64,000 nucleotides of DNA, from positions 103,757 through 167,756 of the IMG/VR virus record IMGVR_UViG_3300032224_000591. One strand, 5' to 3'. The number at the start of each line of letters is the position of its first letter. The stretch's first letter is position 1. Of the stretch, positions 15,761 to 58,774 are shown in pieces. Source of the stretch: a virus. The notes below the pieces were generated by a model. It saw only the letters and a program-made list of their open reading frames with translations, was not told where the DNA came from and ran no database searches. Position numbers and translations under genes: made by a program.

Positions 15761-15761
15761 A

Positions 15762-18707: not shown

Positions 18708-18711
18708 TTGA

Positions 18712-18786
18712 TCGGGGTTAGTTTAATAGGTAGAACGAAGGACTTTGAATCCTTTGGTCGAGGTTCGAGTCCTTGCCCCCGAGCCA
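18712..18786 (+). tRNA. tRNA-Gln(TTG)
   Basis: Acceptor TCGGGGT/CCCCCGA (one mismatch at 7-66), anticodon stem AAGGA/TCCTT, loop CTTTGAA, G73, encoded CCA. Confidence 0.92.
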
Positions 18787-18802
18787 ACGTTGGAGATATA
18801 TG

Positions 18803-19181: not shown

Positions 19182-19184
19182 CAA

Positions 19185-19469: not shown

Positions 19470-19479
19470 ATAGAGTAAT

Positions 19480-19555
19480 GCCCGGTTAGCTCAGCGGTAG
19501 TAGCATTTCCTTTACACGGAAAATGTCGGCGGTTCGATCCCGTCACCGGGTACCA
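19480..19555 (+). tRNA. tRNA-Val(TAC)
   Basis: Acceptor GCCCGGT/ACCGGGT, anticodon stem TTTCC/GGAAA, loop TTTACAC, encoded CCA. Its CCA abuts the stop codon of the convergent o-spanin gene. Confidence 0.93.
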
Positions 19556-39124: not shown

Positions 39125-39501
39125 TGGCCCCGGATCCGACACCAGCAATTATCGAGAGATTGACTCAGATCTCTATGGACATCAAGTCCATGCTGGCTGT
39201 CCACGAGCAGCGTCTCACACAACATGAGAAGGCTGTGGATAATATCGCAGTCTATATTGAAAAACGTAGAGATGAGTTGGATCAGAAATTAAAAGACGTC
39301 TACGAAACTATTCGAACACGTGACGATAGACTCCTGGAGGAGATTAAAGCATCACGTGAAGAGCACAACAAGCACTACAACTGTCTAAACGAAAAGTTCA
39401 ATACTATCCAGCGCTACGTATGGATGGCTATCGGTGGCGGAGTCGCCCTAGGCTATGGTTTCTCCTTCATAGCCAACTATTTTAAGGTACTAGGACATTA
39501 A
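39124..39501 (+). CDS. Coiled-coil protein with C-terminal membrane span
   Basis: 125 residues from GTG 39124 overlapping the previous stop. A long coiled coil (TQHEKAVDNIAVYIEKRRDE) is followed by one C-terminal hydrophobic segment (WMAIGGGVALGYGFSFIANY). Topology resembles XhlA-type haemolysin/holin accessory proteins. Function uncertain. Confidence 0.65.
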   Translation: MAPDPTPAIIERLTQISMDIKSMLAVHEQRLTQHEKAVDNIAVYIEKRRDELDQKLKDVYETIRTRDDRLLEEIKASREEHNKHYNCLNEKFNTIQRYVWMAIGGGVALGYGFSFIANYFKVLGH

Positions 39502-39504
39502 CAA

Positions 39505-39533
39505 TGTACATCTGAGTGTGTTGGTGGTATAAT
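39505..39533 (+). promoter_or_regulatory. Early/middle promoter, TGTACA-N17-TATAAT, before primase
   Basis: TGTACA 39505-39510, TATAAT 39528-39533 preceded by GG. Confidence 0.87.
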
Positions 39534-39558
39534 ACTATCAACGACTGGAGATATACAG

Positions 39559-40584
39559 ATGTGGCTAGAACGAAAGTACATCAGCCTGCTGTCTGGCAGA
39601 CTGCAGCAATTCAAACCACGTAATCATGGCTTCAACTTCCGCTGCCCCTTCTGCGGTGATAGCCAGACGTCTAAGTACAAGACACGTGGTTGGATCTACG
39701 AGAAGAAGGGCGACTACAAATTCCACTGCTTCAACTGCAATGCATCCAAGGGGTTTTCCTACTTCCTGAAGGAGCTTGATCAGCAGCTGTACAACGAGTA
39801 CCGTATGGAGGTCTTGAAAGATTCAAAGACTCTGGAGCAGGAAGAGCTTGAGGTCTTCATCAAGAAGATGGAGAAGCCTAAGTTCATGAAGGAAGGTGTT
39901 CTTAAGGGACTCAAGAAAGTCTCTCAGCTATCACCTGACCACAAAGTCAAGAAGCTTGTCGACTCTCGAAAGATCCCAACAGACGTACACTACAAACTAT
40001 TCTCATGCCCGAACTTCTTCAAGTTCTGCAACAGTGTGATCCCCGGCAAGTTCAGCGATAAGACTCTTGAGCACGATGAAACTAGGTTGTTGATACCGTT
40101 CTTTGATAAGGACAAAAATGTCCATGCCTTTCAGGGTCGTGCGCTAGGTGAGTCTAGAGTTAAATATGTGACGATCGTTATTGATGAGTCTGTTCCCAAG
40201 GTGTATGGACTTGATACGGCTAACTTTGATAAAACCGTGTATGTGACGGAGGGCCCAATTGATTCTATGTTTATCCCCAATAGTATTGCTACTGCTGGTG
40301 GTGATCTTGTTTCTGCTCTGGGTGCTTTTCAAGGCGAAGCCAAATCTTCCTTGGTGATCGTGTACGATAACGAGCCTAGAAGTAAGGACACTGTAAAGAA
40401 GCTTGACAAAGCTATCCTCCAGGGTTATCGTGTCTGCATCTGGCCCGATAACCTTGATCATAAGGACATCAATGACATGGTAATGGCTGGTCTTTCATCT
40501 GACTTCATCAAGCACATTATCGATACAAACACGTACAAAGATCTAGCTGCAAAGTTAGCACTAAACCGGTGGAGCAAAGTCTAA
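39559..40584 (+). CDS. 61: DNA primase gp61
   Basis: 341 residues. N-terminal zinc domain CPFCGDS (about 31-37) and CFNCNAS (about 59-65). Toprim core with VYVTEGPIDSMF near 225 and LVIVYDNEPRSKD near 270. Makes RNA primers with helicase gp41. Own promoter and GGAG ribosome site. Confidence 0.95.
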   Translation: MWLERKYISLLSGRLQQFKPRNHGFNFRCPFCGDSQTSKYKTRGWIYEKKGDYKFHCFNCNASKGFSYFLKELDQQLYNEYRMEVLKDSKTLEQEELEVFIKKMEKPKFMKEGVLKGLKKVSQLSPDHKVKKLVDSRKIPTDVHYKLFSCPNFFKFCNSVIPGKFSDKTLEHDETRLLIPFFDKDKNVHAFQGRALGESRVKYVTIVIDESVPKVYGLDTANFDKTVYVTEGPIDSMFIPNSIATAGGDLVSALGAFQGEAKSSLVIVYDNEPRSKDTVKKLDKAILQGYRVCIWPDNLDHKDINDMVMAGLSSDFIKHIIDTNTYKDLAAKLALNRWSKV

Positions 40585-40796
40585 TGAATGATAAAATTGA
40601 AAACCTGCTAAACGAACTTGGTTGGGGTATGGGTGATCCTGCAGATGACTGCATGCAGTGTAGCCCATTTGATCCCTATGAGTTTGCTATTAGGATTATC
40701 GAAGAGTGTATGGAAGTTGCTGATGATTCAGTAGAACATGGCATTCCGTCTGCACATATTGCTAAACATTTTGGCATGGAGGTTGAGTATGATTGA
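40584..40796 (+). CDS. 70-aa acidic protein, unknown
   Basis: ATG 40584 overlaps the primase stop (TAATG). MNDKIENLLNELGWGMGDPA with two Cys and a helical C-terminus. Function unknown. Confidence 0.65.
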   Translation: MNDKIENLLNELGWGMGDPADDCMQCSPFDPYEFAIRIIEECMEVADDSVEHGIPSAHIAKHFGMEVEYD

Positions 40797-41127
40797 ACCA
40801 TTAAAGCTTACAGACATTGGCTCTTTCGAAGAGTTTGCTACTATGGAGATGAGTCGTCTTCTTGAAGCACTTAGAATTGCATCCGAACGCATCGAGCAAC
40901 TGACTTCTGGCCCTGGCGGCATCATGGAAATGAAGCAGACCATTGCAGATAAAGAACAGCGCATCGAAAAACTAGAGACGGCATTGGAGCATACAATGGA
41001 GTGCTTCCTCGGTGCTAGAGAGGCGTTGAAGGAATGCGTCATTGAGCGGGATGAAGCCCGCAAAGCACTGGAGAGGACAGAGAACTATGGGCAAGGTTCA
41101 GAACCCTGGTTAGAGGACACAAAATAA
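40789..41127 (+). CDS. 112-aa coiled-coil protein, unknown
   Basis: ATG 40789 behind GGAGG; an earlier in-frame ATG at 40738 yields an implausible N-terminus. Contains long heptads (ADKEQRIEKLETALEHTMEC). Function unknown. Overlaps the next gene by one base. Confidence 0.65.
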   Translation: MIEPLKLTDIGSFEEFATMEMSRLLEALRIASERIEQLTSGPGGIMEMKQTIADKEQRIEKLETALEHTMECFLGAREALKECVIERDEARKALERTENYGQGSEPWLEDTK

Positions 41128-41426
41128 TGAGCGGATATATATCCAAGAAGATGATGGCCAGGAGCCGCGAGCCAGAGGAAGATGCAATTATGGGTTTCAT
41201 TAAGCTAACTAATAGGGCAGGTAAGCATGCTGGCATGCCACTGTTATTCAACGTTGATTGGATTACGACTGTCTATGAAGAGGCAGGCCCTGATGGTGGT
41301 AGCCTTAGTACTATGGTTTATTGTATTCAGGGTAATAAGTCATGGGTTGTTGAGGAGAGTATGAGTGAGGTCTTGAAGAAGATTGTTGCTGCATCGAGTC
41401 CAGTTAAAGCGTGTACATGTCCATAA
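41127..41426 (+). CDS. 99-aa protein, FlbD-like shape, unknown
   Basis: MSGYISKKMMARSREPEEDA then FIKLTNRAGKHAGMPLLFNV and DWITTVYEE, a beta pattern faintly like FlbD/SH3-type small domains, ending VKACTCP. Unassigned. Confidence 0.62.
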   Translation: MSGYISKKMMARSREPEEDAIMGFIKLTNRAGKHAGMPLLFNVDWITTVYEEAGPDGGSLSTMVYCIQGNKSWVVEESMSEVLKKIVAASSPVKACTCP

Positions 41427-41476
41427 CAGTCCCTGACGTTGATTATCACTATCGTGAATATGACGAGGTAAAGCGA

Positions 41477-42157
41477 ATGAATACTGCTAAAATTATTGCT
41501 ATGACACAACCTACTATTTGGACTGATGCACCCAGTGAACCACAGAAGCTTACTGTCGATGAGTTCATTGCATATGTTGCACGTGTATCTAATCCACAGA
41601 ACCAGAATAACACACTAACTGCGCCTAAGCTTCTCCGCTACCTCGCTAAACATAAGCATTGGTCACCATTCGAGATGGTCCATGTTGTAATGGAAATCAA
41701 TACCACTCGTGACATTGGCCGTCAGATCCTTCGTCACCGTTCCTTCAGCTTCCAGGAGTTTTCTCAACGCTATGCAGATCCAACCAAAAATATGGGGTTT
41801 ACCTTTCGCGAAGCCCGTTTACAAGATACAGCCAATCGACAAAATTCCATCGAAACTTCCGACAAAGAAACAAAATTTGAATGGCAAAAACTCCAATGTA
41901 TCGTCAGAGACACATCAAGAGGAGCCTACGAGCAAGCTATCAATATGGGCGTAGCAAAGGAGCAGGCACGTGCATTACTACCTGAAGGACTTATTCTTAG
42001 TCGCATGTATATGGCTGGCAGTCTTCGCTCTTGGATTCATTATTGCCAACTGAGAATGACTGAAGGTACGCAAAAAGAACATCGTGAGATTGCTCTTGAT
42101 GCATGGTATCAGATCACTGAGGCATTCCCATCTCTTAAGGATGCATTGGATATATGA
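41477..42157 (+). CDS. thyX: Flavin-dependent thymidylate synthase ThyX
   Basis: 226 residues from ATG 41477 (GAGG 41464-41467); an upstream in-frame ATG at 41411 would add 22 residues. The signature RHRSFSFQEFSQRY (RHRxxSxQxxSxRY) is at about 82-95, and SRMYMAGSLRSWIHY near 180 forms the dUMP site. Makes dTMP with FAD and methylene-THF. Works with NrdA/NrdB to supply dNTPs. Confidence 0.95.
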   Translation: MNTAKIIAMTQPTIWTDAPSEPQKLTVDEFIAYVARVSNPQNQNNTLTAPKLLRYLAKHKHWSPFEMVHVVMEINTTRDIGRQILRHRSFSFQEFSQRYADPTKNMGFTFREARLQDTANRQNSIETSDKETKFEWQKLQCIVRDTSRGAYEQAINMGVAKEQARALLPEGLILSRMYMAGSLRSWIHYCQLRMTEGTQKEHREIALDAWYQITEAFPSLKDALDI

Positions 42158-42372
42158 TTAAGAAGCCGGTAATTCCTGACCATGTCTGTCCATATGTCGA
42201 TTTAGCTATTGAGCTTATTGAAGGCATGGCTGATCAAGAAGATAAGGCCTGGAGAAAATCCCAGGCCACAATGGCAATTGCACTAATGGAACATGTTAGG
42301 GTTAGTGCTGAGAAGCTTAGGGCTAGCAGTCAATATTGGTATGATAAGAGTAAAAGGCTGCCTAAAGTATAA
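42154..42372 (+). CDS. 72-aa helical protein, unknown
   Basis: Overlaps ThyX by 4 nt. MIKKPVIPDHVCPYVDLAIE then helices. Its stop lies in the late box 42368-42375. Function unknown. Confidence 0.65.
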   Translation: MIKKPVIPDHVCPYVDLAIELIEGMADQEDKAWRKSQATMAIALMEHVRVSAEKLRASSQYWYDKSKRLPKV

Positions 42373-42375
42373 ATA
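42368..42375 (+). promoter_or_regulatory. Late-promoter box TATAAATA heading the curli-like operon
   Basis: Exact consensus, 24 nt before the CsgF-like start. No other strong promoter is seen before 48891, so the chain csgF to radical SAM is probably one late transcript. Confidence 0.72.
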
Positions 42376-42398
42376 GTCTGAGTACAGAGGATTAAAAG

Positions 42399-42845
42399 AT
42401 GAGAAGTTTTGCAGCCATCCTGGTAGTATATCTCGCGTCGACACTGGCGGTGGCTGCAGAACAACTTACCTTTCAGTTTAAGAATCCATCATTTAATGGT
42501 AATGGATGGTCATCTATGGCTCTGACTATCCAGCAACAAGAGTTTAGTAGAGAGCAACAGATTAAGGCCGATAAGAAGGCTGCAGCCGATGCTATCGAAG
42601 CTGCTAAGACAAATACGAACTTACAGAAGTTTCTTAATAACCTAGAATCACGTATCTATGCACAGATTAGTCAGCAAATGGCTAACAATATGTTTACCGG
42701 TACTGGTGGTTCTACGGGCACAATGAACTTTGAAGGCAACACAATCTTCTGGGTTAAGAGTACTGATAGCGTTATGTTACAGGTGACAGATACAACGGGC
42801 AGTGTGACAACGATCACTGTACCAATTGGGAGCTTTGTGTTCTAA
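42399..42845 (+). CDS. csgF: CsgF-like curli assembly protein
   Basis: 148 residues. Signal peptide MRSFAAILVVYLASTLAVAA, mature start EQLTFQFKNPSFNGNGWSS, matching the CsgF N-terminal peptide (TFQFRNPNFGGN in E. coli) that inserts in the CsgG pore. Helical middle, beta C-terminus VTTITVPIGSFVF. CsgF couples CsgG to the curlin nucleator at the cell surface. TAATG overlap with csgG. Confidence 0.9.
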   Translation: MRSFAAILVVYLASTLAVAAEQLTFQFKNPSFNGNGWSSMALTIQQQEFSREQQIKADKKAAADAIEAAKTNTNLQKFLNNLESRIYAQISQQMANNMFTGTGGSTGTMNFEGNTIFWVKSTDSVMLQVTDTTGSVTTITVPIGSFVF

Positions 42846-43657
42846 TGAAAATGATCTTCGCTATTGCTCTGGCGGCGGCCTTATCAGGCTGCGCTACGAT
42901 TGACTCTACAATGAAAGAACAAAGCGGCGCGATGGATGAGCCGCAGGTTATTACTAAGCAGCGTATCCCTGAAATTCTGACTGTTCCAATGAATGCTGGT
43001 GACCCGATTCCGATTGCGGTATATGCATTCAATGATAAGACTGGTCAGCGTAAGCCTAACGATAATGTTGCACTGTTAAGTAGTGCAGTGACACAAGGCG
43101 CTGAAGTATTCCTTATCAAGGCACTTAAAGATGCTGGTAGTGGTAAGTGGTTTAAGCCTATTGAAAGAGTTGGTCTTGATAATCTAGTTAAGGAACGTCA
43201 GCTTATTCGTTCACAGCGAGAGACGTATGAGGGTCAACAAGCAAAGCCTCTAGAACCTCTATTAGTTGCTGGTGTAATGATCGAAGGTGGTGTTGTTGGA
43301 TTTGATACCAACATTGCTAGCGGTGGTATAGGTGCAGCTTTCCTTGGCATTGGCGCTGATAAGCAGTACCGCGTTGATCAAGTAGTTATTGTTATGAGAC
43401 TTATATCCGTACAAACAGGAGAAGTTCTTCTGAGTGTTGGAACAAGTAAGACAATATATAGTACAGTTGGTAGTGTCAACCTTCTGAAGTTTGTAGACAG
43501 TGGGACTAAAGATGTCCAGTTCGAAGCTGGAAGCAGTATTAATGAACCTACAACATATGCCGTGCGAGTTGCTATTGAAGCAGCAGTAGTCGATATGATA
43601 CGTGAAGGACAAAAGGCAAAGCTCTGGTTCTATAAGCCAGTGCCAAAGAAAAAGTAG
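42845..43657 (+). CDS. csgG: CsgG-like outer-membrane secretion pore
   Basis: 270 residues. Lipoprotein signal with lipobox LSGC (Cys16). IPIAVYAFNDKTGQRKPNDN and RVGLDNLVKERQLIRSQRE are the conserved CsgG core; YRVDQVVIVMRLISVQTGEV and SVGTSKTIYST form the transmembrane strands. Nine copies form the curli export pore. In E. coli CsgG is 277 aa, so this is full length. Phage csgGF pairs have, to my recollection, been reported in marine phages. Confidence 0.94.
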   Translation: MKMIFAIALAAALSGCATIDSTMKEQSGAMDEPQVITKQRIPEILTVPMNAGDPIPIAVYAFNDKTGQRKPNDNVALLSSAVTQGAEVFLIKALKDAGSGKWFKPIERVGLDNLVKERQLIRSQRETYEGQQAKPLEPLLVAGVMIEGGVVGFDTNIASGGIGAAFLGIGADKQYRVDQVVIVMRLISVQTGEVLLSVGTSKTIYSTVGSVNLLKFVDSGTKDVQFEAGSSINEPTTYAVRVAIEAAVVDMIREGQKAKLWFYKPVPKKK

Positions 43658-43668
43658 GAGTAAAACAA

Positions 43669-44358
43669 ATGAGAAACATTATAGCTTTTGCTATGGTTTG
43701 TTTCTCACTTCTGTTAAGTAACGTATCTTATGGAGCTGGAAACTCGGTCTATATGGACCAGATAGGCGATAACTCAACATTGACTGTTACCCAAACAGGT
43801 AGTGGGAATGCATTAGGAACAAATATGGCTAGCGCCAAGTTTGGTGGTGATTCACAGACTGTGCTCATTACTCAAATTGGTATGAATAACATACATGATG
43901 TGGTTGTTGATGGTTCAAGAACGACTGTCAACAGCATTGTAACTGGTAACAATAACCGCACTACTATCGGATGTGGTACGGTTGGTGGTGGTCAGTGTGC
44001 TGATGCTAATATTGCTGCTAATGCTACAGGTGGTGGTAACATCATGAAGATTACTACACAAGGGATGTCTGATTCTCAGATTCAAATTGTTGGTGATCAA
44101 AACGAAGCGCAAATCAATAACACTTCTACGTCATTGCTCGGCGCTAAGGCTCTTATAGATATTTCTGGTGGTAATGGTAACTATGTCGGTATAGTCCAAG
44201 ATGGACCTGCCGGTGTCAATGGACACGATGCTTCTGTGACTGTGGTCGGTGCAACAAACACCGTGAACGTGGCACAAGGAGGCAGCGTTGACTCAATCGT
44301 ACGTGTTACGACTACCGGTAGTAGCAACACTATTAGCGTTAAGTCTAACCACCAGTAA
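43669..44358 (+). CDS. Curlin-repeat protein (CsgA/CsgB-like), larger
   Basis: 229 residues with AGGAG ribosome site. Signal peptide to about 23 (SYGA-GN), then curlin-type repeats with Gln/Asn ladders: NSVYMDQIGDNSTLTVTQTG, SQTVLITQIGMNNIHDV, TTVNSIVTGNNNRTTI, DASVTVVGATNTVNVAQGG, SIVRVTTTGSSNTISV. It carries a Cys pair (Cys102, Cys110) not found in E. coli CsgA. Predicted substrate of the CsgG pore and able to form amyloid. A ribosome site for the next gene lies inside its 3' end. Confidence 0.85.
   Translation: MRNIIAFAMVCFSLLLSNVSYGAGNSVYMDQIGDNSTLTVTQTGSGNALGTNMASAKFGGDSQTVLITQIGMNNIHDVVVDGSRTTVNSIVTGNNNRTTIGCGTVGGGQCADANIAANATGGGNIMKITTQGMSDSQIQIVGDQNEAQINNTSTSLLGAKALIDISGGNGNYVGIVQDGPAGVNGHDASVTVVGATNTVNVAQGGSVDSIVRVTTTGSSNTISVKSNHQ
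44275..44290 (+). promoter_or_regulatory. Internal ribosome site AAGGAGG with TTG start
   Basis: AAGGAGG 44275-44281, 6 nt before TTG 44288, inside the curlin gene. This is the strongest site for the FecR-domain protein and fixes its unusual start codon. Confidence 0.75.
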
Positions 44359-45418
44359 GGCCGAAGTTGGCAAAATAACGGAACAAACAGGTCCGACAGA
44401 GATTCAAAGACTAAGGGAAGTGATTCCTGGTTCTTTAACTGTCGGGCTTGAGATGAAAGATGCTATTGTTACTGCTAATGCTCGTGCTGGTATAACATTC
44501 AAAGATAACACCCGTGTTCAGATGACTGAGCAGTCTAAGCTTGTCATCGATACATTCGTGTATGACCCAGCTGCATCTGATGCAGGTAAGCTTTCAATGA
44601 AAGCAGCATTCGGCACTATTAAATACGCAAGTGGCCAGATAGCACGTTCGAACCCCCAAGAAGTAAAGATCGAGACACCCACCGCTTCTATCGGTGTTCG
44701 TGGAACCGACTTTACTATGACTGTCGATGAGTTAGGTCGTAGTCTTATCATCCTACTACCATCTTGTCCAACTGGATTCAGAAGTGTCGAGAGAGATTGT
44801 GTAACTGGCAAGATCATAGTCACGACTGATATGGGTGAGGAGATTCTTGATCGACCATTTCAATCGACTATCACTACATCGAGAGAGAAGAATCCATCTA
44901 AGTCTGTAATACTGAAGCTCGACCCATCAGACATCAGCAACATGTTAATTCTGACTCCACCTAGGACTGAAGAGCAACAAACTAAAGTAATGCAGAAGCA
45001 GATAAAGACCGCACTTGATATTAACTACCTAGATCAGAACTTCCTTGATACCAGCGGCATGCTTGATAACATGCTGACATATACAGTGCTTGATGTGAAT
45101 AGGTTGAACACAAACTTCCTATTCAATATGCTTGACCTACTCAATCAGATCCTACTTGATAATGCACTTGATGAGTTTTCAAAGACTGGCAACATGCTAC
45201 CGAACTATACGAAGATCAATAAGGTTCTCGGTCTACAGTATGCAGTTGATGGTGATACTCTCATGCTGTACAAGGAGAGTCCTATCTCTGATTATGTTGA
45301 ACTTAAGTTCAATAAGTATCGTGATGGCACATTAAACCTGACTCAGAACTCAATAGCCCTTACACAGAAAATAAATAGAGGATCTAGCACTAATATTACT
45401 ATCAAGCAGGGGCAATGA
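44288..45418 (+). CDS. FecR-domain exported protein
   Basis: 376 residues from TTG 44288. A signal peptide (VLRLPVVATLLALSLTTSKA) precedes a FecR domain: AIVTANARAGITFKDNTRVQ, SKLVIDTF, GTIKYASGQIA, VKIETPTASIGVRGTDFTM. The C-terminal half is helical with Leu/Asn-rich repeats (NYLDQNFLDTSG, NRLNTNFLF). Periplasmic; FecR proteins pair genetically with CHASE2 cyclases in bacteria. It overlaps the curlin gene by 71 nt in another frame. Confidence 0.88.
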   Translation: MTQSYVLRLPVVATLLALSLTTSKAEVGKITEQTGPTEIQRLREVIPGSLTVGLEMKDAIVTANARAGITFKDNTRVQMTEQSKLVIDTFVYDPAASDAGKLSMKAAFGTIKYASGQIARSNPQEVKIETPTASIGVRGTDFTMTVDELGRSLIILLPSCPTGFRSVERDCVTGKIIVTTDMGEEILDRPFQSTITTSREKNPSKSVILKLDPSDISNMLILTPPRTEEQQTKVMQKQIKTALDINYLDQNFLDTSGMLDNMLTYTVLDVNRLNTNFLFNMLDLLNQILLDNALDEFSKTGNMLPNYTKINKVLGLQYAVDGDTLMLYKESPISDYVELKFNKYRDGTLNLTQNSIALTQKINRGSSTNITIKQGQ

Positions 45419-45675
45419 TGAAAGCGCTAATCCTTCTACTCATGTCTACAACATTCGCCTTTGCTGGCAACTCTGTCACTGTGACCTCAACGGGGAATCG
45501 TCAAAATGTTACTATTACTCAGTCTGGCGGGAATCATTCTACTAATCTCAATCTGGTCGGGAATGATGTTTCCGTTATCGCAACCCAGTCTGGTTCTGTT
45601 TCTAAATCTTTCAGCATTGATATTAATTGTGGCAGCACTTGTCCTACTAGTCCCTATACCATCGACCAATACTGA
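45415..45675 (+). CDS. Short curlin-repeat protein (CsgB-like)
   Basis: 86 residues. Signal peptide MMKALILLLMSTTFAFA, mature start GNSVTVTSTGNRQNVTITQS, then NHSTNLNLVGNDVSVIATQS, two to three curlin repeats. C-terminal NCGSTCPTSPYTIDQY has a C-x3-C pair (Cys72, Cys76). Could be the nucleator. Overlaps both neighbours (ATGATG, TGATGG). Confidence 0.82.
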   Translation: MMKALILLLMSTTFAFAGNSVTVTSTGNRQNVTITQSGGNHSTNLNLVGNDVSVIATQSGSVSKSFSIDINCGSTCPTSPYTIDQY

Positions 45676-47750
45676 TGGAAACAATAGGAAAATATCTAAC
45701 TGGCACTTGGGCAGCTGTTATCAGCGTCTGTCTCCTGTTGACATTGTTTGTAATCAATCCAGGGTTTATGCAAACCCTACAGCTAAAGACATTTGACTAT
45801 CTAATCACATCGCTTGAGCAGAAGAAGTCTGATGAGATTGTCATAGTCAATATAGGTGAAAAGTCTGTTGAGAAGTTTGGTCAGTGGCCATTCAACAGAT
45901 CCGATCTATCAACTATTATCGAGAAGCTAAGAGATAATGGTGCCGGCGTCATAGCAGCACCTATACTGTTTTCAGAGAAAGATAGAGCTGGAGGCGATGA
46001 TGATTTTGCAAAGGTTCTCGATGGTGTGGTCCTCGCACAAATCCCAACTATTCAGAATAGTAAACCTGATTCGGTCCGCCGTGGTTTTTCTGCTATTGGG
46101 CCTATTAATCCTAGTACTAGTGTCTACGGTTGGCCTGGTGGATTACGCCCTCTTGATAAGTTCTCCGAAAATGCCTCAGGCGTTGGTGTGGTCGCAACAG
46201 TTCCTGAATTGGACGGTGTGGTTCGTCGTATTCCTTTACTGGTCAATATTGCATCTGGTCTTTATCCAAGCTTTCCTTTGGAAACCATTCGTGTCGCTGC
46301 TGGAGATATTAGTTTCCAAGTTAAAACAAATGATGAGGGCATTGAGGCGGTTAGAATCCCACAGTTCCCTGCTATATCGACCGACACACGAGGACGCATC
46401 TGGCTAGCATGGAACAATAAGTTCGAAACCCTAGAAGCATCCGAAATTGATGATAGGGTCAAAGATAAAGTAGTTGTACTTGGGCTTACGATTGAAGGTG
46501 TCGGTGGTATTATAGCCACACCAATCGGTGAAAAATGGGCGCACGAAATTCAAGCTCAGGCTCTCCAGACTCTTGTTGATGGTACTTCTATCTCTCGCCT
46601 ATCCGTAGCAAAACTATTAGAAGGAACATTACTAGCATTGCTACTAATGCTACTTCTGTATATAGTTCCAAGACTGACTGTAAGTTTGACAGTTCCATTT
46701 TACGCCCTCTGTATTGCATGCATATCATATGGATCCTATTACTTATTTAAGACACAACTTCAGTTATGGGATCCAAGCTATATCATATTGGCAACAACTG
46801 CTGTATATGGTCATCTTGTATTCAATAACTTTGCCCGTGAGTTCAGACTTAAGCAGCAGATTAAGAAGCAGTTTGGTACGTACCTATCACCAGCACTTGT
46901 TGAGAAGCTTCAGAAGAACCCTGAGCTACTACGTCTTGGTGGTGAAACACGAGAGCTATCGATTATGTTCACGGACGTCCGTGGCTTTACTACTATTAGT
47001 GAGCATTATGGCAGTGATGTTCAGGGTCTGACAAAGATCATGAATCGCTATATGACAGCGATGACTGCAAAGATTATTCAGAATGAAGGTACACTAGACA
47101 AGTATATTGGTGATGCTCAGATGGCTTTCTGGAATGCGCCATTAGATGATAAAGAACACGCTAAACATGCAGTTAAAACAGCATTGGAGATGTTGGATGA
47201 CCTCAAAAGATTTAACACCGAGATTTTGGCTGAAGGTGTGCCTCCCTTTGGTATGGGTCTTGGCATTAACACAGGTAGTGTCGTTGTGGGGAACATGGGA
47301 TCTTCTCAGCGTTTTGATTACACCTGTCTTGGCGATACTGTTAACTTGGCAAGTCGTTTGGAAGGACAGAGTAAACCGTACCATGTAAAGATGGTTATCG
47401 GTCCACTCACATACCAATATGTGAAGGACGAGTATCTATGCCTAGAGCTTGATTGCCTTGCAGTTAAGGGTAAGAGCGAGGGTGTTAAGATCTATACGAT
47501 CGTTAACAAGAATGCTATCAACAATGCCTACTCAAAGACACATGCTGACTTCCTACAACACTATCGCGATATGAACTGGGAGAAAGCACTTGAGTACATA
47601 CCCTACCTTGATAGTGCTTTCGAAGGCGATATGACCGAGTACTACCATATGATGGTAGAGAGAATTGAAGAGTATAAGAAGACACCACCTGGTGTATGGT
47701 ATGATGGGGAGCAGATCTGGGATGGTGTCTTTAGAACAAACAGCAAATAA
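45675..47750 (+). CDS. CHASE2-domain membrane adenylate cyclase
   Basis: 691 residues. N-terminal transmembrane helix (about 12-31), a periplasmic CHASE2 sensor (about 35-310: IVIVNIGEKSVEKFGQWPFN, GRIWLAWN), three transmembrane helices (about 315-390), then a class III cyclase domain. Catalytic features: first metal Asp in MFTDVRGFT (Asp434), adenine-selecting Lys476 and second metal Asp480 in DKYIGDAQMAFW, and CLGDTVNLASRLE with the transition-state Asn/Arg. All appear intact, so it should make cAMP in the host cytoplasm in response to an envelope signal. Confidence 0.93.
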   Translation: METIGKYLTGTWAAVISVCLLLTLFVINPGFMQTLQLKTFDYLITSLEQKKSDEIVIVNIGEKSVEKFGQWPFNRSDLSTIIEKLRDNGAGVIAAPILFSEKDRAGGDDDFAKVLDGVVLAQIPTIQNSKPDSVRRGFSAIGPINPSTSVYGWPGGLRPLDKFSENASGVGVVATVPELDGVVRRIPLLVNIASGLYPSFPLETIRVAAGDISFQVKTNDEGIEAVRIPQFPAISTDTRGRIWLAWNNKFETLEASEIDDRVKDKVVVLGLTIEGVGGIIATPIGEKWAHEIQAQALQTLVDGTSISRLSVAKLLEGTLLALLLMLLLYIVPRLTVSLTVPFYALCIACISYGSYYLFKTQLQLWDPSYIILATTAVYGHLVFNNFAREFRLKQQIKKQFGTYLSPALVEKLQKNPELLRLGGETRELSIMFTDVRGFTTISEHYGSDVQGLTKIMNRYMTAMTAKIIQNEGTLDKYIGDAQMAFWNAPLDDKEHAKHAVKTALEMLDDLKRFNTEILAEGVPPFGMGLGINTGSVVVGNMGSSQRFDYTCLGDTVNLASRLEGQSKPYHVKMVIGPLTYQYVKDEYLCLELDCLAVKGKSEGVKIYTIVNKNAINNAYSKTHADFLQHYRDMNWEKALEYIPYLDSAFEGDMTEYYHMMVERIEEYKKTPPGVWYDGEQIWDGVFRTNSK

Positions 47751-48891
47751 TTATTGTTCGTTGGCTTATGGTGGGTTATTTTATCAGAATGGCTCAGCAT
47801 CTTCTTGTTGTGCTATGAAAACACAACCAATGTCACCGGATGAATATCTAAATCATCCTGATACTATAAAGCTTCGACAAGATTTTACTAATGGGTTAAA
47901 ACCTGAAAAGTGTATTAACTGTTGGGATAAAGAAGATCGTGGTCATCGTAGCATTCGTAGCTATTTTCAGAAAGAACGTGATCCTTCTAAAATTACACAC
48001 ATGGAGCTCCGTGAAAGTAATCTATGCAATTATGGTTGTAGGATGTGTGATCGCTCGAGTAGTAGTGTAATAGAGCATGAGATGGATAATAATCCTCAGC
48101 TTGAAAAGTATTTTAATCGCGATAAGGATTCAGACACGCTAGAGACTGATACCGACACTTCACCGACTTCTAATAAAAATTGGAATGAAATACTAGTACT
48201 AGCCCATGGGTTAGAATCACTCATTCTAACCGGTGGTGAACCAATGTTAATGAAACGATACTATGATCTTTTAGATTATCTAGTTAAGATTGGAAAGCAA
48301 AATATAAAGTTAATCATATACACAAATGGTAGTGTGTATAATCCTATTATTGTTGATAAGCTTAAGAACTTTCCTAATCTAATCTTAAAGTTTAGTATTG
48401 ACGGTGTTGGAAAAGTTGGTGAGTATCAAAGACATAGGTCAGATTGGAATGTAGTAAGTTCTAACCTTTTACGATTTTCAGAATTACCATTGACAATCAA
48501 GATTCATACTACTATAACAGCATATAATATATTAGATATTTCTAATCTAGCAAAATATTTAGTTTCACTACAACTTCCACATTATAATAATGCTGCTACA
48601 ATAAGTGATGCTACAGCACATGTTGTCGCGCATCCAAGAAGTCTTGAATTTCTTAATCTAAATGTACCTCTAAAGATACGAGCTATACAAGAAATTAATA
48701 AAGCAGTTAAATTAATGGAAGGCTATAAATTCTTAGCATCATATTCAAATGATCTTATGGCAGTACAAAATATGCTAGTAGAAACTAAACACGAAGAAAC
48801 TAAGTTTCATAAATTTGTTGAGATGACTAAAGCATTAGATAAAGTTAGAAACGAGAGGTTTGAGGATGTCTTTGGCTACAAGCTATACTAG
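47722..48891 (+). CDS. Radical SAM enzyme coupled to the curli-like operon
   Basis: 389 residues from ATG 47722, 29 nt inside the cyclase gene; earlier in-frame starts lie in cyclase sequence. Radical SAM motif SNLCNYGCRMCDRS (Cx3Cx2C), GGE motif LILTGGEPMLM, and an N-terminal Cys group (CSLAYGG, SSCCAMKTQ, CINCWDKE) recalling twitch/SPASM cluster binding. AT-rich after 47750, unlike the upstream genes. Resembles twitch-domain radical SAM proteins found in phages. Possible peptide-modifying role on the Cys-containing curlins is inference. Confidence 0.88.
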   Translation: MVSLEQTANNYCSLAYGGLFYQNGSASSCCAMKTQPMSPDEYLNHPDTIKLRQDFTNGLKPEKCINCWDKEDRGHRSIRSYFQKERDPSKITHMELRESNLCNYGCRMCDRSSSSVIEHEMDNNPQLEKYFNRDKDSDTLETDTDTSPTSNKNWNEILVLAHGLESLILTGGEPMLMKRYYDLLDYLVKIGKQNIKLIIYTNGSVYNPIIVDKLKNFPNLILKFSIDGVGKVGEYQRHRSDWNVVSSNLLRFSELPLTIKIHTTITAYNILDISNLAKYLVSLQLPHYNNAATISDATAHVVAHPRSLEFLNLNVPLKIRAIQEINKAVKLMEGYKFLASYSNDLMAVQNMLVETKHEETKFHKFVEMTKALDKVRNERFEDVFGYKLY

Positions 48892-48922
48892 CCTAGGCAT
48901 CCCCATCTTCCTAGTGTGGACC

Positions 48923-49333
48923 TTACTTGGTCTTCTTCTCTGGTACCGGTACGGTACTATCATCTACTTTGACAGCCTCGTGGTTATGTTTAGCTGCTAG
49001 TTCTTCTGCCGCTTTGACCTGCTTATCGGCGGCTTCAAGCTCTCGTTTCTGAGCTTTAGCTGCTGTTTCCACGTCATGCAGGTGGCGCTCTGACTCAATC
49101 TCTTTACCACGTAGCTGAAGCACAATATTAATTTTTTGATTTAATCTAATTAAATCGTTATCCAGCATGCGGATGCGGTCTATCAGAGCGATAAGTACTG
49201 TGTTAGCATCTGAGAGGACGGGTTTGACCTCTTGTGTTGCCCATATCCAAACATAGTAAATAAGATACCCCATGCCGCCAGCAGCGATAATAGGAAAGCC
49301 ATATTTGTTAATCAGGTCTGCAATATCGCTCAT
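48923..49333 (-). CDS. Holin-like membrane protein with coiled coil
   Basis: 136 residues, minus strand. N-terminal NKYGFPIIAAGGMGYLIYYV is one transmembrane helix of the GFPI type, followed by a long charged coiled coil and acidic/Lys tail. Similar start to the next minus-strand gene (VGFPIAAACAGGYFVFL): they are tandem paralogues. Holin or antiholin role is inferred from topology and the opposite orientation shared with the spanins. Confidence 0.65.
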   Translation of the reverse strand: MSDIADLINKYGFPIIAAGGMGYLIYYVWIWATQEVKPVLSDANTVLIALIDRIRMLDNDLIRLNQKINIVLQLRGKEIESERHLHDVETAAKAQKRELEAADKQVKAAEELAAKHNHEAVKVDDSTVPVPEKKTK

Positions 49334-49336
49334 CTA

Positions 49337-49618
49337 TCAATCCCTTCTTGCGTCGTTCTTGCCATCAGCTCGTGCGATACGGTCTGTGTCAGGCTTAACA
49401 CCCAGAGCATTTGAGACTAGAGTATCGATACGGATGACGTCATGATTCATAGTTCTCACACGATTATCCAAAGCTGTAATGATGCCAGAAAGCCCTTTGA
49501 CAGAGCTCATAACACCAGCTAGAATAAACTTCATAGTGAGGAACACGAAGTACCCACCGGCACATGCTGCAGCTATTGGGAATCCAACCTCAGCAACTAA
49601 CTTAAACCATTGATCCAT
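49337..49618 (-). CDS. Holin-like small membrane protein
   Basis: 93 residues, minus strand. One or two hydrophobic segments (EVGFPIAAACAGGYFVFLTM, then KFILAGVMSSV) with a charged C-terminus. YvrJ/BhlA-like GFPI start. AGGTG ribosome site on the minus strand and a GATAAATA late-like box at 49665-49672. Three nt from the paralogue downstream. Confidence 0.68.
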   Translation of the reverse strand: MDQWFKLVAEVGFPIAAACAGGYFVFLTMKFILAGVMSSVKGLSGIITALDNRVRTMNHDVIRIDTLVSNALGVKPDTDRIARADGKNDARRD

Positions 49619-49633
49619 GTAACACCTTTTTGT

Positions 49634-49662
49634 TGTACATTGTTGATTGAGTGGTGTATAAT
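49634..49662 (+). promoter_or_regulatory. Early/middle promoter, TGTACA-N17-TATAAT, before nrdA
   Basis: TGTACA 49634-49639 and TATAAT 49657-49662, 28 nt before the nrdA start. Confidence 0.87.
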
Positions 49663-49664
49663 CA

Positions 49665-49672
49665 TATTTATC
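49665..49672 (-). promoter_or_regulatory. Minus-strand late-like GATAAATA
   Basis: Reverse complement of TATTTATC at 49665-49672, 46 nt before the minus-strand holin-like start. It overlaps the transcription start region of the plus-strand nrdA promoter. Confidence 0.5.
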
Positions 49673-49689
49673 GGTTCAGGAGAAGAAGA

Positions 49690-51981
49690 ATGATCAACAC
49701 AGTATTGGTAACTAAGCGTAGCGGTGATCGTGAACCACTAGATCTTAATAAGTTTCATAAGGTAGTTGCATGGGCATGTGAGGGTATTAACACAGTCTCT
49801 GCATCTGAAATCGAGCTCCGTTCACATATCCAGTTCTACGATGGTATCAAGACTTCTGACATTCAGGAAACACTTATCAAGGCAGCCGCCGACCTTATCA
49901 GCGAAGAAGCCCCGGGTTACCAGTACGTAGCTGGTCGCCTCATCAACTATCATCTGAGGAAGCAAGTATATGGTACCTACCGTGAGCCTCATCTCGCTAG
50001 TCATATTGATAATGTTATTGCAGCTGGATACTATGACAAGGATATTAAAGAATGGTATTCTTTTGCTGATATTAATACTCTTAATGGGTATATTGATCAC
50101 AAGCGAGACTTTTCAATTGCTTATGTTGGTATGGAGCAGTTCCGTGGCAAATATCTAATTCGTAATCGTGTGACAGGGCAGATCTTTGAGACACCTCAGA
50201 TGCTCTATATGCTTATCGCTATGGTGCTCTTCAGAAACTATCCGAAAGAGACACGACTGAAATGGGTAAAGGAACTATATGACGCAACATCTACTTTTGA
50301 AATTTCATTGCCGACTCCTATTATGGCGGGTCTCCGCTCGCCTCAGAAGCAATTCTCTTCGTGCGTCCTTATCGAGACGGATGACAGCCTTGATTCAATC
50401 AATGCTAGCGCTTCCGCAATTGTTAAGTATGTGTCTCAAAAAGCTGGCATTGGTATTAATGCTGGTCGTATTCGTGCTATCGGCTCTCCCATTCGCGCTG
50501 GTGACGCTAGCCATACTGGTGTTATCCCATTTTACAAGCACTTCCAATCCGCCGTTAAGAGTTGCAGCCAGGGCGGTGTACGAGGCGGTGCAGCGACTCT
50601 TTACTATCCTATCTGGCATCTGGAAGTTGAGGACCTACTAGTACTTAAGAACAATAAGGGTACAGAGGATAATCGTATTCGTGGGCTGGACTATGGTGTC
50701 CAATTCAATAAGGTGATGTATGAACGACTTCTTGTTGGCGGGAATATTACTCTTTTCAGCCCTAGTGATGTCCCTGGTCTATATGATAGCTTTTTTATTG
50801 ATGTTGATAAATTCAGATCGCTATATCAAAAATACGAGGCAGATCCGGCGATCAGAAAGAAGTCAATACCCGCTGTGGACCTATTCTCATCGTTCATGCA
50901 GGAAAGAAAAGATACCGGACGAATCTACCTCCAAAATGTCGACCACGCAAACGACCACGGATCGTTCATCAAAGAGCTAGCGCCTATTCATATGTCTAAT
51001 CTTTGTTGTGAAATTACTTTACCAACCAAACCACTCAATGATATTAATGATCCTGATGGAGAGATTTCACTATGTACTCTAGCCGCTATCAACTGGGGGA
51101 AGATTCGTGATCCTGCAGATTTCGAACGTCCTTGTACTCTTGCTGTGCGCGCTTTGGATGAGCTTCTTGATTATCAAGACTATCCTGTTCTTGCAGCTAA
51201 AAATTCTACCATGGCCAGACGCCCTCTTGGTGTTGGTATCATTAACCTCGCTTATTGGTTGGCTCGTAATGATCTTAGCTATCAGCACATTGATCACGAT
51301 GGGTTGAATAAGCTTCATGCATTTGCAGAGGCTTGGTCTTATTATTTAATTAAAGCATCTGTTGATCTAGCAGAGGAGAAGGGTGCCTGTGAGAAGAGTA
51401 ATGAAACAAAATACAGTCAAGGTGCGTTCCCCATACACACCTACAAGAGAGAATTGGACGAAATCGTATCGCCGGAATATCGGATGGACTGGGCTGCGTT
51501 GGGCGATAAGGTTCAGCTTCACGGCATCAGGAACTCAACGCTCATGGCTCTCATGCCATCAGAAACATCAGCACAGATTAGCAACGCAACGAATGGTATT
51601 GAGCCACCAAGATCGCTTGTCTCTGTTAAACAGTCTAAAGATGGCGTCCTTAAACAAGTTGTACCAGAAGTTCGTAAACTTAAAAAGAAATACGACCTAC
51701 TTTGGGACCAACAGTCCCCCGAAGGATATATTAAGATTTGCGGGGTATTGCAAAAGTTCATTGATCAAGGAATTTCCGTCAACACCTCGTACAACCCTAA
51801 ATTCTACGAAGATGAAAAGATACCGATGAGTGATATGATTGGGCATCTGTTGATGTTCTATAAGTATGGCGGAAAACAGCTATACTACTTCAACACCAAT
51901 GATGGTGCTGGAGAATATGAAGAAGCACCTTTGGCTGCTGGTGTTGTTGAAGATGAGGATTGTGAAAGCTGTAAGATATGA
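49690..51981 (+). CDS. nrdA: Ribonucleotide reductase class Ia large subunit NrdA
   Basis: 763 residues from ATG 49690 (AGGAG 49678-49682). An N-terminal ATP-cone (VLVTKRSGDREPLDLNKFHK) is present. Active-site segments: QFSSCVLIETDDSL (redox Cys), MSNLCCEITLPT (thiyl Cys), RNSTLMALMPSETSAQI. The C-terminus EDEDCESCKI carries the mobile CxxC pair that glutaredoxin (62744) reduces. Full length. No intron or intein visible. Confidence 0.97.
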   Translation: MINTVLVTKRSGDREPLDLNKFHKVVAWACEGINTVSASEIELRSHIQFYDGIKTSDIQETLIKAAADLISEEAPGYQYVAGRLINYHLRKQVYGTYREPHLASHIDNVIAAGYYDKDIKEWYSFADINTLNGYIDHKRDFSIAYVGMEQFRGKYLIRNRVTGQIFETPQMLYMLIAMVLFRNYPKETRLKWVKELYDATSTFEISLPTPIMAGLRSPQKQFSSCVLIETDDSLDSINASASAIVKYVSQKAGIGINAGRIRAIGSPIRAGDASHTGVIPFYKHFQSAVKSCSQGGVRGGAATLYYPIWHLEVEDLLVLKNNKGTEDNRIRGLDYGVQFNKVMYERLLVGGNITLFSPSDVPGLYDSFFIDVDKFRSLYQKYEADPAIRKKSIPAVDLFSSFMQERKDTGRIYLQNVDHANDHGSFIKELAPIHMSNLCCEITLPTKPLNDINDPDGEISLCTLAAINWGKIRDPADFERPCTLAVRALDELLDYQDYPVLAAKNSTMARRPLGVGIINLAYWLARNDLSYQHIDHDGLNKLHAFAEAWSYYLIKASVDLAEEKGACEKSNETKYSQGAFPIHTYKRELDEIVSPEYRMDWAALGDKVQLHGIRNSTLMALMPSETSAQISNATNGIEPPRSLVSVKQSKDGVLKQVVPEVRKLKKKYDLLWDQQSPEGYIKICGVLQKFIDQGISVNTSYNPKFYEDEKIPMSDMIGHLLMFYKYGGKQLYYFNTNDGAGEYEEAPLAAGVVEDEDCESCKI

Positions 51982-54201: not shown

Positions 54202-54367
54202 AGTAACAAAAGACAACTATCATACTTTTTTAACATTTCATGGTATGAATCCTGAAGTGGCTGAATATGTTATCAATCAATATGATAACACTGAAGGTTA
54301 TCATAATTTGATGAGTGTTCGTTTATGGGTTGAAGCCTCTAAGTTTGTAGTAGGGATTAATAAATGA
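54194..54367 (+). CDS. 57-aa protein, unknown
   Basis: ATG 54194 overlaps the previous gene; stop overlaps nrdB start. MFEVTKDNYHTFLTFHGMNP; helical. Function unknown. Confidence 0.58.
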   Translation: MFEVTKDNYHTFLTFHGMNPEVAEYVINQYDNTEGYHNLMSVRLWVEASKFVVGINK

Positions 54368-55464
54368 GCTATAGCGTATTCGATTCAAAAAATAAGAAAG
54401 ATGCAACACAGGTAAGAGCATTCTTCGATGATGCTCCTACCATTGCTCGTTACGATAAGCAAAAGTATCCATGGATCGAAAAGCTCACTAATCAACAGCT
54501 TGGATTCTTCTGGCGCCCAGAGGAAGTAGACATCTATAAAGATTCTAAAGACTTTAAGGATCTAACAGTTCATGAACAACATATTTTTACCTCAAATCTT
54601 AAGCGACAAATTCTCCTTGACTCAGTACAGGGTAGAGCACCAACAATGGCATTTGGACCTATTTGTAGTTTACCTGAACTCGAAACATGGATCACAACTT
54701 GGGCATTCTCAGAGACCATCCACTCACGCAGCTATACGCACATCATACGAAACATTTATCCAAACCCATCCAAGATATTCGATGAGATAATGGACATTCC
54801 TGAGATCGTTGAATGCGCAGGTGATATTAGTAAGTATTATGATAAGCTGATCATGTATAACTCATTTCCTATGTCGAACCCTAATAACACTGTTCATCCA
54901 ATGGCACATAAAAAAGCTCTTTGGTTGGCTCTTATGTCTGTTAACGTACTTGAAGGAGTTAGGTTCTATGTATCTTTTGCGTGCAGTTGGGCTTTCGCAG
55001 AAGTTAAAAGAATGGAGGGAAATGCCAAGATCATCAAGCTTATTGCCCGTGACGAGAACCTTCATCTTGCTGGAACACAACAGCTACTCAAGGCGCTTCA
55101 GAAAGAAGATGAGGACTTCGCCGCAATTGCTCAAGAAACGAAAGATGAATGCATCCAACTTTTCGTTAGTGCTGTTAACCAAGAGAAAGCTTGGGCGAGT
55201 TATCTATTCAGAGACGGGTCGATGGTTGGTTTGAATGAGGCTCTGCTGAACGAATATATAGAGTGGATTGCCAACAAGCGTATGACTGCGGTCGGTCTAC
55301 CGACACCTTATAAAGGTGGAAGCAATCCACTGCCATGGACGCAAAAGTGGATCAGTGGCAGCGAGGTGCAGGTTGCCCCACAAGAAACTGAGATCACAAG
55401 TTATATTAATGGTGGTGTGAAGAAGGACGTTAATGAGAACACATTTAAGGGTTTCAGTCTATGA
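54364..55464 (+). CDS. nrdB: Ribonucleotide reductase small subunit NrdB
   Basis: 366 residues. Di-iron ligands: FFWRPEEVD (Asp/Glu site), WAFSETIHSRSYTHI (Glu, His), and IKLIARDENLHLAGTQ (Glu, His). Radical Tyr expected in SKYYDKLIMY region context. C-terminal tail VNENTFKGFSL binds NrdA. Full length for class Ia. Confidence 0.96.
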   Translation: MSYSVFDSKNKKDATQVRAFFDDAPTIARYDKQKYPWIEKLTNQQLGFFWRPEEVDIYKDSKDFKDLTVHEQHIFTSNLKRQILLDSVQGRAPTMAFGPICSLPELETWITTWAFSETIHSRSYTHIIRNIYPNPSKIFDEIMDIPEIVECAGDISKYYDKLIMYNSFPMSNPNNTVHPMAHKKALWLALMSVNVLEGVRFYVSFACSWAFAEVKRMEGNAKIIKLIARDENLHLAGTQQLLKALQKEDEDFAAIAQETKDECIQLFVSAVNQEKAWASYLFRDGSMVGLNEALLNEYIEWIANKRMTAVGLPTPYKGGSNPLPWTQKWISGSEVQVAPQETEITSYINGGVKKDVNENTFKGFSL

Positions 55465-57860: not shown

Positions 57861-58270
57861 TGTCCTACGAAAATCCGTGGACCTATGAAGGTAACTTAGT
57901 AGATGAAGAATTAGTGTACAATCATGTTGGTTTTGTGTATAATATAACCAACATGACAACAGGTAGAAGCTACATTGGTAAGAAGCTTTTCACTAAGGCT
58001 AAGACTAGGCAAGTGAAGGGTAAGAAGAAGCGAACTAGAGTAGCGTCTGACTGGATGGATTACTACGGCTCGAATAAAGAGTTACAAGCTGATGTAGAGC
58101 AACTAGGTATCTACAACTTCAAAAGAGAGATACTAAGACTATGCAAAACCAAGGGCGAGTGCAACTATTGGGAGGCTCGATACCAATTCGATTATCGAGT
58201 TCTCGAGTCTAACGACTATTATAATTCGTGGATCATGGTTAAAGTCCACAAAGCGCATCTGCCCATGTAG
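57860..58270 (+). CDS. GIY-YIG-like homing-type endonuclease
   Basis: 136 residues from GTG 57860. HVGFVYNITNMTTGRSYIGK is the GIY-YIG core (GFVY for GIY, SYIG for YIG), then YYGSNKELQADVEQLGIYNF and a late Glu-containing helix (CNYWEARYQFDY). Similar to T4 Seg-type proteins. The TAG stop is formed by bases 8-10 of tRNA-Leu 58261, so the gene sits tightly against a tRNA, a common homing target. Confidence 0.82.
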   Translation: MSYENPWTYEGNLVDEELVYNHVGFVYNITNMTTGRSYIGKKLFTKAKTRQVKGKKKRTRVASDWMDYYGSNKELQADVEQLGIYNFKREILRLCKTKGECNYWEARYQFDYRVLESNDYYNSWIMVKVHKAHLPM

Positions 58271-58338
58271 GCCAACTGGTTAGAGTCAGCGGACTTAAAA
58301 TCCGCACAGTGTCGGTTCGAATCCGACCATGGGCACCA
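58261..58338 (+). tRNA. tRNA-Leu(TAA) with short variable loop, overlapped by upstream CDS
   Basis: Acceptor GCCCATG/CATGGGC, anticodon stem GCGGA/TCCGC, loop CTTAAAA, variable loop ACAGT, T-arm GTCGG-TTCGAAT-CCGAC, encoded CCA. No long variable arm. Confidence 0.92.
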
Positions 58339-58360
58339 AACTTCTAAAGGATGTACTTTC

Positions 58361-58690
58361 ATGAGTAGTATCATTATGCCGTCTCGAAGATTATTCCTTG
58401 GCGGGCTTATAGCTGCACCTGCTGTTATTGCAGCAAATAAGCTTATGCCTATCAAGTCCTTCGATTTACTGGATGTACCTCAGGAAGAATGGGTTTTGAT
58501 AAAGCACTTTGGTAATAATCCAACTTCTATGGCTTGGATGCCTAAGATTAAATTTGCTACTCAAAATACTGTTGATCTTTCTGAATATAGAATTGTTAGA
58601 ACAGAAAAAGTTCCCGCTCGTACTAATTATAAAACAATACATGCAGGAACTGAATTTTTAACAATTCACAATGCACCGATCATTACTTAA
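58361..58690 (+). CDS. Exported protein with Tat-like signal, unknown
   Basis: 109 residues. SRRLFLGGLIAAPAVIAANK is a twin-arginine signal (SRRLFLGG). The mature part is about 80 residues, basic and beta-rich (NTVDLSEYRIVRTEKVPA). Function unknown; similar export type to the protein at 28771. Confidence 0.7.
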   Translation: MSSIIMPSRRLFLGGLIAAPAVIAANKLMPIKSFDLLDVPQEEWVLIKHFGNNPTSMAWMPKIKFATQNTVDLSEYRIVRTEKVPARTNYKTIHAGTEFLTIHNAPIIT

Positions 58691-58697
58691 ACACTAA

Positions 58698-58774
58698 ACT
58701 CGCGTCGCCAAGTGGTCTAAGGCCAGTCGCTCATAACGGTTTCATCGGGGGTTCGAATCCCTCCGCGAGTACCA
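58698..58774 (+). tRNA. tRNA-Met or tRNA-Ile2 (CAT)
   Basis: Acceptor ACTCGCG/CGCGAGT, anticodon loop CTCATAA, T-arm GGGGG-TTCGAAT-CCCTC, encoded CCA. Elongator-type; Met or lysidine-Ile cannot be resolved by eye. Confidence 0.9.

Follow-up and report, generated by a model that had tools for sequence, protein, structure and literature searches.

A curli secretion cassette with curlin-repeat substrates, a FecR protein and a CHASE2 adenylate cyclase in a T4-like phage, and its two small membrane-protein companions

Many aquatic phages possess curli genes although their known hosts do not, and sibling capture, lysis timing and uptake have been offered in the literature as answers to the question of why. 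The question is posed again by the final 64 kb (64,000 nucleotides (nt), here called the window) of the 167,756-base IMG/VR virus record IMGVR_UViG_3300032224_000591, in which csgF and csgG are followed by genes for a curlin-repeat protein, a FecR-domain protein, a short second curlin-like protein, a CHASE2 adenylate cyclase and a twitch-type radical SAM enzyme. A sequence-only reading had described these genes as one chain headed by a late promoter, and this description held: the promoter element is an exact match, nearly all of the genes abut or overlap their neighbor, and every domain named in that reading (CsgG, CsgF, Curlin_rpt, FecR, CHASE2 and Guanylate_cyc) is supported by Pfam. On balance, we lean slightly towards a cassette for late fiber export that is combined with cyclase signaling in some form. 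The chain comprises the following features.

42368-48891, plus strand: whole chain from csgF to the radical SAM gene, promoter-headed
42368-42375, plus strand: T4-late-type promoter element TATAAATA, exact match, 24 nt 5′ of the csgF ATG
42399-42845, plus strand: csgF, 148 amino acids (aa), apparent signal peptide; Pfam CsgF 1.1e-19; aligned to the CsgF of PDB 6l7a
42845-43657, plus strand: csgG, 270 aa, outer-membrane secretion pore, lipoprotein-type start; Pfam CsgG 5.7e-49; PDB 3x2r CsgG 8e-47
43669-44358, plus strand: first curlin-repeat protein, 229 aa, candidate secreted fiber; Pfam Curlin_rpt 3.1e-5
44288-45418, plus strand: FecR-domain periplasmic protein, ~370 aa; Pfam FecR 2.8e-10; TTG start uncertain, overlaps the curlin gene
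45415-45675, plus strand: second, short curlin-like protein, 86 aa, assigned via relatives
45675-47750, plus strand: CHASE2 sensor and class III adenylate cyclase, 691 aa; Pfam CHASE2 4.4e-40, Guanylate_cyc 2.5e-21
47722-48891, plus strand: twitch-domain radical SAM enzyme; Pfam Radical_SAM 1.3e-10; start chosen by inspection

By sequence, the cassette holds the components of type VIII (curli) secretion, namely a CsgG pore, a CsgF with the CsgG-binding N-terminus and a secreted curlin-repeat substrate. The N-terminal CsgG-binding stretch of CsgF, TFQFKNPSFNGN, is conserved in the alignment to 6l7a (pattern TFQF.NP.F.GN), and CsgF, CsgG and the first curlin all begin with apparent signal peptides. 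The first curlin scored 24.3 bits against the Pfam Curlin_rpt cut-off of 20.7, its family profile matched a solved curlin-repeat protein (PDB 8c50, 2.1e-12) as well as CsgA (8enq, 0.0014), and Curlin_rpt was recognized in 29 of its 37 relatives. Two curlin-repeat proteins had been read from the sequence; the first was corroborated in this way, whereas the 86-aa second protein had no Pfam match of its own and is assigned as a curlin because 15 of the 28 proteins in its family alignment match Curlin_rpt. The promoter element overlaps the stop codon of a preceding 72-aa open reading frame, and TATAAATA occurs in 8 copies in the window (3.15 expected), a number that was reached in 1 of 100 shuffles.

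The same gene order is found in the cultured phages HTVC008M and Melnitz and in IMG/VR loci. Among 167 csgG loci, which were obtained from IMG/VR by three different queries with duplicates removed, the curlin gene came next after csgG in 164; FecR followed in each of the 130 loci that were long enough to show it, and in 99 of the 102 with room for it the cyclase gene was located 3′ of csgG in the same orientation. Cyclase and csg genes, which had been read as one unit in the window, are thus found together in its relatives.

The presence of substrates and a signaling pair beside csgGF is not new. A CsgF/CsgG cluster in pelagimyophages was described in 2020, with sibling capture as the proposed function (PMC7029224), a lysis role was proposed in 2022 for Melnitz, in which csgA and csgB were noted as missing (PMC9004378), and the full pelagiphage set of a type VIII secretion system (T8SS), curlin fiber genes, FecR and adenylate cyclase, with an alphaproteobacterial origin, was published in 2022 (PMC9599517); the same order is also annotated in Melnitz. 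The core cassette is therefore already published and the window is a further member, which shares with the pelagiphage T8SS module (PMC9599517, PMC7029224) the order of csgF, csgG, csgA/B-like gene, FecR, second curlin and cyclase and the lack of CsgE. New here are the small companion pair, the block exchange, the adhesin-type second curlin, the separate bacterial modules and a correction concerning the radical SAM gene.

The functional unit reaches past position 48891 and includes two further genes.

48923-49333, minus strand: small membrane protein 1, 136 aa, phrog_18771, just outside the interval 42368-48891
49337-49618, minus strand: small membrane protein 2, 93 aa, phrog_18771, paralogue of small membrane protein 1

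This small pair is a near-obligate companion of the cassette. It was present in 144 of the 145 resolvable csgG loci in IMG/VR, and no csgG locus with both flanks long enough lacked it (0/167, the other 22 loci being short-flanked). In 50,697 phage records, matches to the pair were limited to six, the same six that contain the cassette, and there it is located directly 5′ of csgF. Among the IMG/VR loci, both members stood 5′ of csgF on the same strand in 88 and one member did so in 1, while in 56 loci the pair was located downstream on the opposite strand; one member lay between csgF and csgG in five loci (L180-L183, L185). Furthermore, exactly two copies were found in 12/12 csgG-bearing contigs and none in 11/11 csgG-less relatives (one-sided hypergeometric 7e-7, a probability that is indicative, as the contigs were hand-picked and four positives were found via the pair itself). 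In the contig L099 (IMGVR_UViG_3300027782_000120), the cassette is gone between thyX and the small pair (274-2570) and two other genes, phosphoesterase-like and glycosyltransferase-like (named by eye), are found instead; there is no csgG on this 51.8-kb contig, and the pair can therefore persist alone.

The cassettes of HTVC008M (gp11-gp19) and Melnitz (genes 97-104) likewise consist of the small pair, csgF, csgG, curlin, FecR, second curlin and CHASE2 cyclase, but they differ from the window in that its small pair is located downstream on the opposite strand and in that its CsgG and cyclase have 42-48% identity to theirs. For the pelagiphage module, a 'histidine kinase, sometimes two' was reported to be always upstream of csgF (PMC9599517); in place of these genes, the window has the two short membrane proteins, downstream on the minus strand. 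We infer that the genes called histidine kinase are probably the small membrane pair; a terminase query (run without a positive control) identified no podoviral contigs for comparison. In 28 small-pair members, no match to a kinase domain was obtained at E ≤ 0.1, and 385 alphaproteobacterial genomes yielded no homologue of the pair in a search without a positive control in cells.

The small proteins possess a hydrophobic stretch at the N-terminus (weak by Kyte-Doolittle) together with a polar helix that is conserved (LIALxDRIRMLDNDLIRL) and a tail that varies, and 9 of 28 relatives weakly match the holin phrog_4898 (best 6.2e-5). A single hydrophobic segment with a helical tail would suit a lysis device, in which CsgG/CsgF would act as a gated, pinholin-like outer-membrane pore and the small pair as holins, timing depolarization and lysis; the position of the pair beside csgF or the cyclase gene, the late-type promoter and the proposal made for Melnitz (PMC9004378) point in the same direction. 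However, where relatives have no cassette, they have no pair either, which weakens a role as the general holin of this clade. The CsgG pore belongs to the outer and not the inner membrane, and the substrate genes are kept in 164/167 loci, with adhesin-type domains fused to some of them. The argument for Melnitz moreover relied on the absence of csgA/B, a premise that fails because the Melnitz record lists two curlin-repeat genes, the Curlin_rpt in the second being Pfam-supported. We consider a lysis device unlikely and retain it chiefly because the small pair weakly resembles a holin.

The substrates themselves favor fiber export, which we regard as probable. The second-curlin position varies in size among phages: HTVC008M gp018, annotated as hypothetical, consists of PA14 and Curlin_rpt, L182 and L225 are similar, F5_F8_type_C is combined with curlin repeats in L068 and L072, and L055 has F5_F8_type_C at this position. 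The second curlin is thus modular, and other phages have it joined to PA14 or F5/8C domains. Such domains bind glycans in other proteins, and the fusions therefore favor an adhesive fiber. The short second curlins, including that of the window at 45415-45675 (with just 86 aa, it differs from the pelagiphage module), have a conserved C-terminal end with the consensus C-x-S-x-C ... SPYxVNQY, which may form a disulfide and serve as a tail for sorting or pore targeting. Some relatives form a group in which an amidoligase-type (PF12224) gene lies between second curlin and cyclase (L055 4593-6605, L064 3429-5570, L068 5399-7903).

Curlin-repeat proteins with PA14 or F5/8C domains could also be part of the virion, for instance as tail fibers, with CsgG and CsgF as by-passengers. 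The late-type promoter would agree with this, as would the location of the HTVC008M and Melnitz cassettes just before tail/baseplate genes, but the apparent signal peptides on CsgF, CsgG and the first curlin and the co-variation of the pore genes with the curlin gene (r 0.84-0.85, from pairwise protein distances across 80 dereplicated loci) make virion use very improbable. Another function, suggested in PMC7029224 and PMC9599517, is uptake, in which a CsgG pore that is ungated, the CsgE gate being absent, would admit large molecules (e.g. iron or vitamin complexes) and FecR and the cyclase would report on it; CsgF, two secreted curlins and the fused adhesin-type domains are left unexplained by uptake, which we judge improbable.

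The protein distances from the 80 loci separate the cassette into parts. CsgF, CsgG, the first curlin and FecR correlated among themselves at r 0.84-0.91, the cyclase correlated with this csgF-csgG-curlin-fecR block at r 0.64-0.76 and the small pair did so at r 0.32-0.50, with 0.84 within the pair and 0.62-0.66 between pair and cyclase. FecR and the cyclase had been read as a pair, and such pairing is indeed common in bacteria, but the viral FecR co-varies more with the pore and fiber (r 0.91 with the curlin) than with the cyclase (0.71), an excess of 0.11-0.28 by bootstrap in the presence of a conserved gene order. In the 16 loci holding nrdA, a small sample in which distances and not phylogenies were compared, r with nrdA was 0.75 for the cyclase, 0.82 for small protein 2, 0.54 for small protein 1 and 0.42-0.47 for the csg/fecR block. 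The block thus follows the phage backbone, represented by nrdA, weakly, and the cyclase and the small pair follow it better. On the simplest reading of these correlations, phages exchange the pore-fiber-FecR block with one another as one piece. Identity of the relatives to the window protein was 43% for the curlin, 44% for CsgF and 49% for FecR versus 85% for nrdA and 91% for small protein 2; within the cyclase, the periplasmic CHASE2 part was 55% and the catalytic part 80% conserved against the window. Fast divergence of exported and periplasmic parts is as expected under diversifying pressure on surface-exposed parts, for which relaxed constraint is an alternative.

The catalytic residues of the cyclase had been read as complete, and all six are present: D434 and D480 (the two metal-binding Asp), K476 and T550 (substrate Lys and Thr), and N557 and R561 (transition-state Asn and Arg). 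Of these, D434, K476, D480 and R561 were invariant in 154 cyclase sequences, the position of T550 was occupied by T, S or D, and that of N557 by N in 145 and by S in 9. The nine include the cyclase of Melnitz (L003 14826-16874), unlike that of the window; in Melnitz and the 8 others, Ser stands in place of the transition-state Asn and Asp at the substrate position, and the activity of the enzyme in this lineage may be lower or changed. The closest solved enzyme to the window cyclase is CyaB from P. aeruginosa (PDB 3r5g, 6.9e-33), and ATP as the substrate is supported because CyaB likewise has Thr at the purine-selecting position. The window cyclase is very probably active.

The nearest cellular cyclases found, mostly alphaproteobacterial, had 29-40% identity. 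Among the 80 closest cellular relatives, a FecR gene was on the locus in 30 and within 500 bp in 18, and a csg gene in none. Conversely, six alphaproteobacterial csgF loci had csgF and csgG adjacent together with curlin genes, as in the phage, but differed in having neither FecR nor CHASE2 cyclase within ~10 kb. FecR/CHASE2 clusters are documented for S. meliloti (SMc02177-CyaD1, PMC5498481) and Campylobacterota (PMC9239204); they resemble the viral cassette in that FecR and CHASE2-class III cyclase genes are neighbors and differ from it in having no csg genes beside them, whereas no dedicated CRP/Clr regulator was found in the phage record. Hence, csgF-csgG-curlin and FecR-CHASE2-cyclase are separate clusters in the bacteria sampled, a bacterium with the whole set being possible beyond this sample, and the viral cassette looks as if two bacterial modules had been combined and the small pair added.

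The cyclase might be independent of the fiber block, a positional neighbor that serves cyclic AMP (cAMP) reprogramming of host metabolism or defense. Its distances track nrdA more closely than those of the csg/fecR block do, and it is found on the other strand or upstream in some loci (L131, L235, L216). However, its conserved position downstream of csgG (99/102) and the frequent location of its closest alphaproteobacterial relatives beside FecR genes argue against independence, which we consider rather unlikely. More than one of these explanations may hold; for instance, an independent cyclase would not contradict fiber export.

Taken together, we propose that the cassette is expressed late, is self-contained and serves type VIII secretion and adhesion, and that it includes a cAMP relay from the envelope to the cytoplasm. 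The CsgG-CsgF pore would form in the outer membrane of the host in the absence of CsgE and export the first curlin as a fiber, while the second curlin, with its PA14 or F5/8C domains in several phages, would be a nucleator or adhesive subunit. The fiber may coat the infected cell before lysis and mediate adhesion to or aggregation with new hosts, or shield it against rival phages. FecR would be located in the periplasm together with the pore/fiber block and signal the state of this block to the inner-membrane CHASE2 domain, the cyclase would produce cAMP, and cAMP would act via CRP-type regulators of the host. The two small proteins would be dedicated to this system as inner-membrane partners and would not act as a general holin. 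The relay from FecR to the cyclase is the least supported step, and we hold it to be possible, close to an even call; for the FecR protein itself, the AlphaFold model (predicted local distance difference test (pLDDT) 64) had the FecR-type cell-surface signaling domain of PupR as the best match, which is weak alone (E 2.4e-3).

Several observations weigh against this proposal. The curlin repeats are degenerate, with few canonical motifs per protein, and the single-sequence AlphaFold model of the first curlin was beta-rich only and of low confidence (pLDDT 52) and was set aside as not interpretable. Melnitz cultures showed no clumping (PMC9004378). CsgE, already reported as absent by the sequence-only reading, had no match (PF10627) in the 167,756-base record, and CsgE strongly boosts curli secretion in E. 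coli (quoted in PMC7029224); yet it is not required for the viral subtype, because the published viral modules likewise lack it (PMC9599517). Given the Asn to Ser replacement in the Melnitz lineage, cyclase activity may not be needed everywhere. Finally, neither a cAMP-binding (PF00027) nor a CRP-like protein was found in the record, and a phage-encoded cAMP receptor was therefore discarded; the reader of an increase in cAMP, which would take place in the host, would thus be the host's own.

The radical SAM gene is physically next in the chain, as had been read, but it is not a conserved member. It scored 250.3 bits with the NCBIfam twitch-domain model NF033640 (cut-off 170), and it is regarded as an occasional accessory neighbor and ruled out as an operon member because it follows the cyclase gene in just 3/87 loci. 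The surroundings of the cassette include the following genes.

41411-42157, plus strand: thyX, left flank of the insertion site in the clade of the window
49651-51981, plus strand: nrdA, right flank of the insertion site, named by sequence inspection
54364-55464: nrdB-like gene, typed by PHROGs

An empty insertion site, in which thyX is directly followed by nrdA without cassette or small pair, was observed in L360, L359, L362 and other thyX relatives. The phage is T4-like, with a recognizable DNA polymerase, UvsX-like recombinase, DnaB-type helicase and ribonucleotide reductase small subunit. It differs from the phages with the published module in that it is not obviously a pelagiphage, judged by its GC content (~39-50% per 2-kb block of the window) and its 31 tRNA genes (4811-19555 and 58261-58774), an unusually large set. 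Unlike in Melnitz, no tmRNA was found in the window. Control by a glutamine riboswitch as in Melnitz was also ruled out, since a search of 39500-49700 returned nothing credible, the sole match being a chance match to an animal microRNA family. Cassette and small pair occur together in contigs of 285-344 kb (L114, 343.6 kb; L154, 328.1 kb; L123/L061, 285.3 kb), a further difference from the pelagiphage module; being far above the size of the window phage, these contigs indicate that the cassette reaches jumbo-size phage genomes.

Viral curli could constitute a distinct type VIII subtype, a tentative view that we put somewhat below even chances. It would have an obligate two-protein inner-membrane component that is absent from the alphaproteobacterial genomes sampled, an exported half of pore, chaperone, fiber and FecR that is swapped between phages as a unit, and an inner-membrane half of cyclase and small pair that stays with the phage. 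If true, this would be a phage-made, sensed and interchangeable surface-fiber machine. The near-universal substrates, several of them with PA14 or F5/8C fusions, point to surface adhesion, and the small pair and the block exchange provide concrete genes to decide between the published ideas in the cultured HTVC008M and Melnitz systems.

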